Below, in pieces: positions 3,141-24,488 of a stretch of DNA of 32,846 nt (the stretch's first letter is position 1; the number at the start of each line of letters is the position of its first letter). Below the pieces are notes generated by a model. It had not been told where the DNA came from and searched no databases. It was given only the letters and a program-made list of their open reading frames with translations. The DNA is from Candidatus Woesearchaeota archaeon. GTDB taxonomy: Archaea > Nanobdellota > Nanobdellia > Woesearchaeales > JAHJEM01. The position numbers and the translations under genes were made by a program. Location: positions 1-32,846 of the forward strand of contig JAFGHY010000005.1 in NCBI GenBank assembly GCA_016929855.1. Reading direction: 5' to 3'.

Positions 3141-3761
3141 ATGGTAAATATATTTACTCTTCTTAAAAGGCTGTTCAGAGGCAGAAAGAATCTCAAGCTG
3201 GGGCTTTACGGACCTCCTAATGGCGGTAAGACTACTTTGGCCAATAAAATCTGTGTGGATTGGATTGGCGAGGAGATGGGTGCTACCAGCAACATTGCTC
3301 ACGAGACACGTGAAGTGCAGATGAAGGAGTCTGTAATCATCAAGAGTAAGGGCAAGGAGCTTGTCTTCAACCTTGTGGACACTCCAGGCATAGCCACCAA
3401 GATTGACTATGAGGATTTCATCAAGCTTGGCATGAAGGAGAAGGAAGCTAAAACAAGGGCTAAGGAGGCTACAAAAGGTGTTATTGATGCCATTAAGTGG
3501 CTGGATGACATGGATGCTGTTGTGATTGTCCTGGATGCAACTAAAGACCCTTACAGTCAAGTCAACATTACTATCATTGGAAATCTGGAAGCTCGTAAGA
3601 TTCCTGTTTTGATTGTTGGGAACAAGATTGACTTGAAGAAGGCAGACCTCAAGAAGGTGCAGGCTGCGTTCCCGCAGTACAAGGTCATAGGCATTAGTGC
3701 CAAGATGGGCAAGAACATGGAAGACTTTTATGAAGCATTGTTTGAGGTGACTGACAAATGA
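3141..3761 (+). CDS. arvA: Era/Ras-like small GTPase, ArvA (OapA) family
   Basis: The 206-residue product has all the main GTPase motifs: G1 GPPNGGKT at 24-31, G3 DTPG at 80-83, G4 NKID at 161-164 and G5 SAK at 186-188. A basic hydrophobic N-terminus (FTLLKRLFRGRK) could touch membrane. It is followed directly by a DUF2073 gene and then a zinc-ribbon gene, the conserved archaeal trio known as OapABC and, from work in Haloferax, as ArvABC, in which the GTPase drives extracellular vesicle formation. The 'Oap' name reflects its frequent position near origins. Family and context are strong; a vesicle role in this organism is an inference from that work. Confidence 0.85.
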   Translation: MVNIFTLLKRLFRGRKNLKLGLYGPPNGGKTTLANKICVDWIGEEMGATSNIAHETREVQMKESVIIKSKGKELVFNLVDTPGIATKIDYEDFIKLGMKEKEAKTRAKEATKGVIDAIKWLDDMDAVVIVLDATKDPYSQVNITIIGNLEARKIPVLIVGNKIDLKKADLKKVQAAFPQYKVIGISAKMGKNMEDFYEALFEVTDK

Positions 3762-4150
3762 GCTTGACCTTGCAGTTCATACCTTACATTGAGATTGAGG
3801 ACTTGGACTCTGAGAAGAGGATTACTAAGTTGCTTAAGATTGTAAAAGCAAACAAGATTATTCTTTTGGAGGGTCGGCTTAAGGGCAATGAGGAGACAGA
3901 GCTCATCCGCCGTACAATGGAAGAGATTGATGACAAATTCAAAGGCATAGAACTTAGTGTCATATTTCCTGACAAGAAGGACGAGGCTTTGTTCAGGAAA
4001 CTGAAATCAATGCTCATCCAGGCTTTGATGGGCGACAGGAAAGGCTTCACAATCATCGGGCCTGCAACAATCGTTAAGGAAATCAAGCAGGATCCTGACA
4101 AGATACAATTGTTCACTGAGGACCTGAAGATTCCTAGGAAGAAGAGATAA
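3758..4150 (+). CDS. arvB: DUF2073 protein, ArvB (OapB) family
   Basis: The 130-residue product begins MSLTLQFIPYIEIEDLDSEKRI and matches the DUF2073 family, which accompanies the ArvA GTPase across Archaea. It shows a predicted alpha/beta pattern with KIILLEGRLKGNEETELIRRTME and a conserved FTIIGPATIVKEIKQDPDKI end. It lacks signal peptides, membrane segments and catalytic signatures. The start overlaps the arvA stop by 4 nt (ATGA), so the two are translated together. Function is known only through the GTPase partner. Confidence 0.82.
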   Translation: MSLTLQFIPYIEIEDLDSEKRITKLLKIVKANKIILLEGRLKGNEETELIRRTMEEIDDKFKGIELSVIFPDKKDEALFRKLKSMLIQALMGDRKGFTIIGPATIVKEIKQDPDKIQLFTEDLKIPRKKR

Positions 4151-4189: not shown

Positions 4190-4320
4190 TTTCTTGTTGT
4201 AATTAGAACGGATTGCCTTTTCTCTTCGAGAAAAGGAATTATCAATCTACGCAGCCCAAAAACTGCTGGCAGATTTTTGGGCTGCCTATTGCTTTTGAAT
4301 CAGTTTTAACTGCTAGTAGT
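4190..4320 (+). repeat. Two-hairpin intergenic repeat element, copy 1
   Basis: This element lies between arvB and arvC. Hairpin 1 (4216-4236) is a perfect 9-bp stem, CCTTTTCTC, with a TTC loop. Hairpin 2 (4251-4285) has a 12-bp stem, GCAGCCCAAAAA, continued by CTGC/GCAG with one bulged A. The single-stranded linker ends TCAATCTAC. A second copy at 23.1-23.3 kb in the same orientation keeps both stems and the linker almost base for base, with weaker similarity extending about 20 nt upstream and 40 nt downstream. It could be a small structured RNA, a MITE-like mobile repeat or a processing or termination site for arvAB. Confidence 0.75.
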
Positions 4321-4400: not shown

Positions 4401-4787
4401 ATGCCACACCAGTGCGTCAATTGCGGGACTTTGTACCAGGACGGTAGCAGTGAGATTCTCAAGGGCTGTTCCTGCGGCTGCAAGCTTTTCTTCTACATAA
4501 AGAAGGACAAACTGGCAGAGAATGAGAGGCCTTTCATCCTTACTAAGGAGCAGAAGCAGCAGATCGAGGAGGACGTGTATGACATCATTGGCGGGGAGAT
4601 TGACAGGGAAAAGCCTGTTGTACTGGATATTGAGAGTATCAACATCCTGAAGCCCGGCAAGTATGAGCTGGACCTGGTTAATCTGTTCAAGAAGAAACAG
4701 CCTTTGATTTACAAGCTGGATGATGGCAAGTACGTCATCGATATTATTGAGACGTTCAAGAAAGCCGGCGCAAAGGAAGCCAAGTGA
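4401..4787 (+). CDS. arvC: Zinc-ribbon protein, ArvC (OapC) family
   Basis: The 128-residue product starts MPHQCVNCGTLYQDGS and has a zinc ribbon formed by CVNC at residues 4-7 and CSCGC about 20 residues later (CX2C plus CX1CX1C). A linker and an alpha/beta C-terminal part follow (KPGKYELDLVNLFKKKQPLIY). This is the third member of the ArvABC/OapABC cluster. The ORF track opens at 4338, but the extra 21 residues overlap the promoter region and precede the zinc ribbon, so ATG 4401 is preferred. Its own promoter means the trio is not a single transcript unless readthrough passes the repeat. Confidence 0.82.
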   Translation: MPHQCVNCGTLYQDGSSEILKGCSCGCKLFFYIKKDKLAENERPFILTKEQKQQIEEDVYDIIGGEIDREKPVVLDIESINILKPGKYELDLVNLFKKKQPLIYKLDDGKYVIDIIETFKKAGAKEAK

Positions 4788-22501: not shown

Positions 22502-23095
22502 ATGCATGTCTATCTCCAGAGCACAGAATACACGACTGCCGCCTCAAGCTTGATGATGGTGCTGAACCATTTCAATCCAAAGTTCTTGCTGTCTAGAGAG
22601 AATGAATTCAGGATATGGCAGGAGTCTGCCAACCTTCCAGTGAGGGCCAGCAGCATATACGGTCTTGCAGTATTCGCGAAGCGGAAAGGACTTAATCCAA
22701 GGATTGTGTTGGAAGAGAAGGAGTTCGACTTCCCAGATTACAGGTTCAAGAAATATCCGAAGCAGGACATTGACCATGCGAAGTTCATGTCAAAATTGCA
22801 CCACAAACGAGCTGTTGACTTGGGAATCCTGATAATAAAGAGGGAGTTCGACTTTGAATTCGTGAAAAGAACTGCCCGACAGAATCCAATAATGCTAAGG
22901 GTAAATGCAGGAGTGCTTCGCGACAGCAAGGCAACCTCTAATTATATCATAGTGTTCAAGAACGGCAAGGAAGGCCTTACAATAATGGACCCCATCAAAG
23001 GCCGAAGCATCGTGGACATGAAACTTCTTGAGAAGGCCTTTGAGACACTGTGGAAGAAGAAAAAAAGAGACCACAGGATGATAGTGTTTGAGTAG
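22502..23095 (+). CDS. Peptidase C39-like protein, apparently inactive
   Basis: The 197-residue product follows the papain-like C39 layout. It starts MHVYLQSTEYTTAASSLMMVL, where active families have Gln then a Cys in a DCG motif; here the Cys position is Thr11. The later SNYIIVFKNGKEGLTIMDP matches the HYVVV...DP block, with the catalytic His replaced by Asn. There is no signal peptide. It may be a substrate-binding or regulatory relative of C39 domains. The start is leaderless behind a TATA box. A two-hairpin repeat follows its stop. Fold assignment is moderately sure; loss of catalysis is read from the residues. Confidence 0.65.
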   Translation: MHVYLQSTEYTTAASSLMMVLNHFNPKFLLSRENEFRIWQESANLPVRASSIYGLAVFAKRKGLNPRIVLEEKEFDFPDYRFKKYPKQDIDHAKFMSKLHHKRAVDLGILIIKREFDFEFVKRTARQNPIMLRVNAGVLRDSKATSNYIIVFKNGKEGLTIMDPIKGRSIVDMKLLEKAFETLWKKKKRDHRMIVFE

Positions 23096-23120: not shown

Positions 23121-23259
23121 ATTTTTACTACTTGTAATCGGAATGTATTGCCTTTTCTCTTCGAGAAAAGGAGATTCAATCTACGCAGCCCAAAAATCTG
23201 CTTGCAGTTTTTGGGCTGCCTATTATTTTTGTATAAATTTAAATTAGAAGTAGTAAAAA
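23121..23259 (+). repeat. Two-hairpin intergenic repeat element, copy 2
   Basis: This copy lies between convergent genes. Hairpin 1 is at 23151-23171 (same 9-bp stem and TTC loop as copy 1), then a linker ending TCAATCTAC. Hairpin 2 is at 23185-23219 with the 12-bp GCAGCCCAAAAA stem and an inner CTGC/GCAG stem. The single bulge is a T on the left strand, where copy 1 has an A on the right. Outer arms TTTTTACTACTT (23122-23133) and AAGTAGTAAAAA (23248-23259) enclose the whole element. Copy 1 keeps only part of these arms. Between convergent genes it could also end transcription from both sides. Confidence 0.75.
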
Positions 23260-23279: not shown

Positions 23280-24488
23280 TCAATTCATGCTTTTGCTCAA
23301 TTCATACTCTTCCAACACTAGCGCATCAATCCTGTCCAAATCCTTGACACCATAGAACCTGCCATTACCTATATCGACTATCTGCCTACCGAGCTTCTCA
23401 CCTTCCTCGTCCAAACTAATCCCCAACATACTGACTGTTATGCCTTCTTCGCGAGCCCTACCGACTGCCTGCAGGGTTGCTTTTTTAGGCTTCTGTCCTT
23501 TTGTAGGCATGGCATCAGTGATTATGACGAGATGTTTTGTCTCTCTTGTGCCGGGGAACACTTCAATTGCCTTGTCTATAGCTTTGCTTATGTCCGTCTC
23601 CTGACCCGCACGAATCTTGGCGAGCTCCTCAAGAATGAGCGGGAAGTCTTTGGTAGGCGGGATGACGCTCTTTACTTCGCTGTCGAACACTATCAGTCCT
23701 GATTTGTTCTTGTCGGTTATTGCTTTGAATGCGAGGGCAATTCCTGCACGTTTTGACATGCTGATCTTCTGGCCTTTCATGCTGCCGCTGCTGTCCATCG
23801 CAAATATGACGCTTATGCTTCCCTTGCTTTCCCTCGTGACAGCTATTAAATCATCTTTCTCCACACTCTTGTGGTTGCGCTTGATGCCTCGCCGAATGCT
23901 TTGCCTCACGCTCACGTCCCTGTATCTGTGGTTCTTGAAAAGCTCGTAGTCTTTCTTGTCGCCATAATGTGTCTGTTTGTGCTCCTTGCGCTCCCCGAAA
24001 CCCTTTGGGACTATCTTCTCTATCTCTTCTACGTACATGATCAGCTCGCAGAGTTTGTAGCCTTTGCGCGTTATACGCCCGTACTTGTCTAGGTACTTGT
24101 TCTCCTGCAGGGATTTTATGCGCTGGCCAATCCTGTCCTTCAATTCTCTTTGAAATTCTGGGATGTTTATGTTCCTTTCAACATAGCCTGGCTCGTATCC
24201 TGTCAGCTCTCTGATGATGCTCTGACCCATTATGCGCTCTGCATTCTTGTAGTCCTGGACGAGCTGTTCGAACATCAGGTCTGGCGTGAAACTGCCTAGG
24301 CCTTGACTGATGCTTTCAGTTATCAGCTTGCCGTCGTCGACTTTGTCCTTGTCGCCTTCCAGCACGCTCTTCATGAGCTTGTCATCCTCGTCGCTCTGCC
24401 CCAGGCTTCCAGAAAGCTCTTCTATGGGACTTGCTCTTTCAATGCTTATGGGCTTGTCCTCAGAAGGGCTGTCACCCGGCACCGGCAC
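23280..24488 (-). CDS. VWA-domain protein, partner of the MoxR/BchI-type ATPase
   Basis: The 402-residue product has an acidic, charged N-terminal half and a C-terminal von Willebrand A domain. The metal-ion-dependent adhesion site is FAMDSSGSMKG (Asp232, Ser234, Ser236), with AGQETDISKAID and VIITDAMPTKGQKP following. This is the arrangement of BchD/ChlD-like and MoxR-associated subunits that couple a AAA+ ring to a target. The GTG start overlaps the ATPase gene by 17 nt, so the pair is translationally linked. There is no signal peptide or membrane segment. The target is unknown. Confidence 0.85.
   Translation of the reverse strand: MPVPGDSPSEDKPISIERASPIEELSGSLGQSDEDDKLMKSVLEGDKDKVDDGKLITESISQGLGSFTPDLMFEQLVQDYKNAERIMGQSIIRELTGYEPGYVERNINIPEFQRELKDRIGQRIKSLQENKYLDKYGRITRKGYKLCELIMYVEEIEKIVPKGFGERKEHKQTHYGDKKDYELFKNHRYRDVSVRQSIRRGIKRNHKSVEKDDLIAVTRESKGSISVIFAMDSSGSMKGQKISMSKRAGIALAFKAITDKNKSGLIVFDSEVKSVIPPTKDFPLILEELAKIRAGQETDISKAIDKAIEVFPGTRETKHLVIITDAMPTKGQKPKKATLQAVGRAREEGITVSMLGISLDEEGEKLGRQIVDIGNGRFYGVKDLDRIDALVLEEYELSKSMN

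Follow-up and report, generated by a model that had tools for sequence, protein, structure and literature searches.

Small non-coding repeats with two covarying hairpins, probably of mobile type, are dispersed between the genes of a Woesearchaeota archaeon

The window, by which we mean the whole stretch of 32,846 nucleotides analysed here, holds two intergenic copies of one element, organised as a short inverted end, hairpin 1, a linker, hairpin 2 and a second short inverted end. The two copies and their parts are as follows:

4194-4320, + strand: copy A, end to end between the inverted-end motifs, between oapB (3758-4150) and oapC (ATG at 4401)
4216-4236, + strand: hairpin 1 of copy A, CCTTTTCTC-TTC-GAGAAAAGG
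4242-4250, + strand: type-1 linker of copy A, TCAATCTAC, which can pair with GGATTG at 4210-4215, directly 5' of hairpin 1
4251-4285, + strand: hairpin 2 of copy A, GCAGCCCAAAAACTGC...ATTTTTGGGCTGC, with a one-base bulge in the 3' arm
23127-23254, + strand: copy B, between the convergent genes of a Peptidase_C39-like protein (22502-23095, + strand) and a VWA protein (23280-24488, - strand)
23151-23171, + strand: hairpin 1 of copy B
23176-23184, + strand: linker of copy B, TCAATCTAC
23185-23219, + strand: hairpin 2 of copy B, with a one-base bulge in the 5' arm

An Orc1/Cdc6-like gene (595-1650, named by eye) is grouped in the window with oapB (3758-4150) and oapC (4401-4787), both assigned by Pfam. 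The oap genes are origin-associated, and as the three genes occur together, a replication origin may be close by.

The earlier note had described two copies about 19 kb apart in the same orientation, and we located both as claimed, at a distance of 18.9 kb. Stem 1 (CCTTTTCTC TTC GAGAAAAGG) and the linker TCAATCTAC are 100% identical between them, and hairpin 2 differs at its tip while keeping GCAGCCCAAAAA/TTTTTGGGCTGC in both, which agrees with the description of stems and linker as nearly unchanged. The reported switch of the stem-2 bulge from one strand to the other with pairing retained was also found, the bulge being an A in the 3' arm of copy A (at 4.2 kb) and a T in the 5' arm of copy B (at 23 kb). 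The statement that the flanks diverge stood only in part. The likeness between the two copies exceeds the hairpins, continuing for about 22 nt to the left and about 35 nt to the right and reaching the inverted ends ACTACT...AGTAGT, which gives an element of about 127 nt; on the other hand, the flanks of the copies found genome-wide are indeed unrelated. Overall, copies A and B are 82% identical over about 136 nt (E 1.5e-30), and the folding of each beats 200 of 200 dinucleotide shuffles (z of -3.8 and -6.1, respectively). Taken together, the match and the folding exclude chance.

We searched the organism's own genome, an assembly of 0.91 Mb in 92 contigs that is 80% complete, with a covariance model built from 19 copies. 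Of the copies that it returned, about 27 in total, 24 were strong and 3 partial or diverged, and a DNA search (BLAST) of the same genome gave 39 matching pieces. The gene content of the genome is archaeal; its superoxide dismutase had mixed hits, of which the best two were from Pacearchaeota/Nanoarchaeota MAGs. The absence of any further copies, which the earlier note had named as the outcome that would speak against it, is therefore not what the genome presents, and a local duplication can be ruled out because the copies are spread genome-wide and have unrelated flanks. From one inverted-end motif to the other, most uninterrupted copies are 121-129 nt long, the few longer ones containing internal duplications or nested insertions, and the uninterrupted repeat (121-128 nt) is too short to code for a transposase. 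The mean pairwise identity of the copies is 62%, which indicates an old family with no visibly recent movement.

Practically every copy is intergenic (one, at a contig end, is ambiguous), and the coding share of the window is about 85%. The copies occupy tandem, convergent and divergent gene gaps beside unrelated housekeeping genes. Their neighbours are oapB/oapC, the peptidase-like protein and the VWA protein in the window, and a proteasome-type AAA ATPase, CDC48/NIF3, AsnRS, LeuRS, Top6B and Hjc elsewhere; open reading frames served to orient the genes, ten proteins were checked against Pfam and some names (CDC48, AsnRS) were given by eye. Since every type of gap is occupied and the neighbours are unrelated, these positions agree more with dispersal than with a single cis-regulatory role. 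Terminators of transcription, or insulators, that serve a function between genes would also be dispersed, and copy B and several other copies do sit between convergent genes, with hairpins able to stall polymerase in bacteria. However, about seven copies lie between apparently divergent genes, some are upstream of genes such as those for AsnRS and Top6B, and a simple terminator scan around copy A found none. Intrinsic termination in archaea, moreover, relies on U-tracts, a need that also counts against this explanation, and we consider it very improbable.

Both hairpins show strong compensatory change. When the copies are aligned with structure left out of account, 17 of the 24 hairpin pairs are changed at both positions in one copy or more; with the possible GGATTG/CAATC stem included, the full structure of 31 pairs has 21 that change on both sides and 87.6% of cells that pair, and its covariation is 0.312, against 0.112 when shuffled and at most 0.067 in slid controls. 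On a tree made from the unpaired columns we counted at least 43 Watson-Crick-to-Watson-Crick switches over 16 pairs, a number that depends on few columns and that module exchange between copies would inflate. The covariation that had been suggested as a test of the element is thus clearly present. Hairpin 1 has been nearly wholly replaced and is still paired in some copies (for example CCGTTC/GGACGG in L041 and CGACC/GGTCG in L054), and hairpin 2 keeps an invariant run of A-T pairs within its variable outer stem. Two types of linker occur, TCAATCTAC and GGAGTRGTC, of which only the first allows the extra linker stem to form fully, and the unpaired GGATGGATTG and an A-tract are conserved among copies. 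The inverted ends ACTACT/AGTAGT show no covariation and pair no better than shuffles, so that an outer stem made from them is unsupported.

Such compensatory change in both hairpins speaks for a multi-copy functional RNA, that is, for sRNA genes or structured UTR elements amplified in this lineage with their RNA pairing under selection. The same can be said of the somewhat better RNA folding of the + strand than of its complement in 18 of 23 copies, these copies being related and not independent. However, a fixed-column count on the + strand, covering the 12 outer pairs of stem 2, has A-C mismatches (8 cells) as common as G-U (6 cells). Selection on RNA would favour G-U, and the equal frequency of A-C therefore counts against a functional RNA, as does the presence of copies in all gap types beside unrelated neighbours; we regard this explanation as unlikely.

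The G-U and A-C intermediates, both of them present, and the whole arms swapped with pairing kept, as in hairpin 1 of L041 and L054, are instead in favour of a neutral, inactive repeat whose arms remain complementary mainly through hairpin-templated (quasi-palindrome) repair and not through selection. This kind of repair is a known mutational process, which is a further point on its side. Nevertheless, it leaves unexplained both the dispersal of the copies and the conservation of the unpaired GGATGGATTG and the A-tract, and as a full account of the family it seems to us quite unlikely.

Two of the copies lie at gene junctions that are narrower in relatives. The gap between oapB and oapC is 250 nt here, where it holds copy A, and 1-55 nt in most of the relatives examined, with 2 nt in a genome of the same family; likewise, CDC48 and NIF3 lie 193 nt apart here, with a copy in the gap, and two relatives have 16 and 11 nt at this junction. 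The copies at these two junctions are lineage-specific gains, the empty sites being those of other genera and families and not of strains. Both gaps hold more than the element, which means that they are not clean single-step insertions. The empty sites for which the earlier note had proposed to look are thus these two junctions, where relatives have the genes side by side. Flanking direct repeats of at least 4 nt, such as a target-site duplication would leave, are not enriched at the ends of the element, which are placed approximately and not to the base. At the same oapB/oapC junction, L090 and L084 carry unrelated spacers of 131 and 143 nt, the first of which is rich in inverted repeats.

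Beyond this genome, the covariance model found no copy in the genomes of the 39 nearest relatives, nor did it find one in 352 further genomes from the order or in 378 sampled at class level, these sets overlapping one another. The larger searches (order and class) used stricter filters with which weak matches are lost, and the absence holds outside the genus, the genomes compared all coming from other genera. No contig in GTDB or IMG/VR contains the exact core pattern, and no phage or plasmid record matched in similarity searches. In Rfam, no family reaches the gathering score and the weak matches lie far below the cut-offs; membership of an Rfam family is thus ruled out, in line with the observation that the element resembles no recognised RNA family. 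Both the want of an Rfam match and the absence of the repeat from all relatives sampled are further arguments against the functional RNA discussed above.

What the copies show, namely dispersal, gain and no gene context in common, suggests that a mobile-type repeat has been moved in trans. We therefore think it likely that the family consists of small, non-coding, non-autonomous repeats of mobile type, with hairpins kept by selection or by hairpin-templated repair. Selection on structure and a small mobile repeat were the two options offered by the earlier note, and both find support in our data, the many copies and the empty sites being what it had expected of the mobile one.

For these mobile-type repeats, a trans-acting enzyme may recognise both the folded DNA of the element, whose hairpins would be extruded or single-stranded, and its conserved unpaired GGATGGATTG and short inverted ends; it may then paste copies into AT-rich intergenic DNA. 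Copies without pairing would stop spreading, and pairing would thus be kept while the sequence of the arms drifts; hairpin-templated repair may add to the kept pairing. The hairpins and GGATGGATTG suggest themselves as what such an enzyme would recognise. The two-sided compensation is unusually clear in both hairpins, which makes the family a natural experiment on what a mobiliser (or repair) reads.

Our search for a mobiliser covered Y1 transposases, TnpB-type proteins and tyrosine recombinases. Neither a Y1 transposase (IS200/IS605 TnpA) nor a TnpB-type zinc domain was found in the 80% complete assembly, and movement by a resident IS200/IS605 TnpA was rejected on that ground. Three tyrosine recombinases are present in the genome and nothing ties them to the repeat. 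Because of their presence we considered integron attC-like sites, which have RYYYAAC/GTTRRRY boundary boxes, and ruled them out on reading, since the copies are single and dispersed and their ends lack such boxes. No longer element with ACTACT/AGTAGT ends was found in the assembly by BLAST or by the model, and a parent element could lie in the unassembled 20% of the genome. Another reading, which appears improbable to us, is that of a mobile element specific to DPANN archaea that a host or other recombinase not of the IS200/IS605 type recognises chiefly through its folded single-stranded DNA; if true, structure rather than sequence would mark the recognition site.

SMR-A of Haloquadratum walsbyi is a non-coding repeat of about 110 bp, with tens of copies and with inverted ends that have no known transposon tie (PMC3119063). 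The present repeat resembles it in these respects and also in being archaeal, of similar size, free of target duplication, mobilised by an agent that is not known, and entangled with other palindromic repeats, which nest in or fuse with copies here as they do in published archaeal mobile repeats (PMC3119063). In contrast, copies within the SMR-A type are commonly more than 95% identical, against the mean of 62% found here, and SMR-A mostly inserts into PATE/IS605 palindromes, whereas our copies mostly lie in ordinary intergenic DNA (PMC3119063). Two strongly covarying hairpins, and inverted ends that are weak where those of SMR-A are prominent, further distinguish the present family in this comparison, which is one of descriptions only. 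The PATEs, which derive from IS200/IS605, share with it terminal palindromes (here the two hairpins, about 22-35 nt from the ends), the lack of target duplication, a length too short to code and, at times, sequence heterogeneity (PMC3119063). However, PATEs have no inverted ends and share their palindromes with IS605-type elements (PMC3119063), and neither a related element of this type nor a Y1 transposase was detected in the 80% complete assembly.

As to MITEs in the strict sense, terminal inverted repeats in common with an autonomous transposon are absent, there being only the short ACTACT/AGTAGT ends, and the target-site duplication that is often, not always, present in them has no counterpart in an enrichment of flanking repeats of at least 4 nt. 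The MITEs SM1-SM4 of Sulfolobus solfataricus are likewise archaeal and non-autonomous, with 25-44 copies per genome according to a citation in PMC10969869. Transposases of elements with similar ends are the proposed movers of archaeal MITEs (PMC2229807), whereas no parent with similar ends was found here. Among bacterial MITE-type repeats, ERIC/IRU, NEMIS/Correia, BOX, Efa-1/Pae-1 and the Caulobacter CIR are comparable in being about 100-200 bp long, intergenic, dispersed and able to fold, and Efa-1, Pae-1 and CIR have two adjacent hairpins as here (PMC10969869, PMC2267715, PMC2229807). They belong to another domain of life, however, and show no sequence similarity to our repeat in the collections searched, and ERIC is a single long stem-loop. 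The features shared broadly by MITEs, SMRs and PATEs, namely many dispersed copies, a non-coding size and empty sites, are all present. Since strict membership of MITEs, PATEs or SMR-A fails in each case on at least one of the features tested, we file the repeat under small non-autonomous mobile repeats as a new family; it is a new family of an already known general kind of element.

Small mobile repeats are little described in archaea, and our literature search found no paper on them in DPANN archaea. The present case is also a warning that covarying hairpins between the genes of archaea need not be regulatory RNAs and can instead belong to mobile repeats.

Other palindromic sequences were met in the course of this work. 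A second dispersed family has a similar two-hairpin layout, with CAGAC followed by a variable paired hairpin and by TACGACCCACCCCG..GGGGCATCYCCCGGGTCGTCTG. It lies at 403-515 in the window, at 12 places in the organism's own genome (L182-L193) and also in L057 and L055; one copy is just upstream of the Orc1/Cdc6-like gene, and two are joined to hairpin 2 of the main repeat treated above. A piece about 43 nt long, which forms a hairpin, ends in GAGGTATGCTTTAATAACAATCA and is similar to the end of an IS605-type element, is nested within hairpin 2 of L052 (C64) with AATCA on both sides, and the same piece occurs in the 3' end of L044 (C12), uninterrupted copies of the repeat representing its empty site. 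In L053 (C24), another hairpin-rich insertion adjoins hairpin 1.
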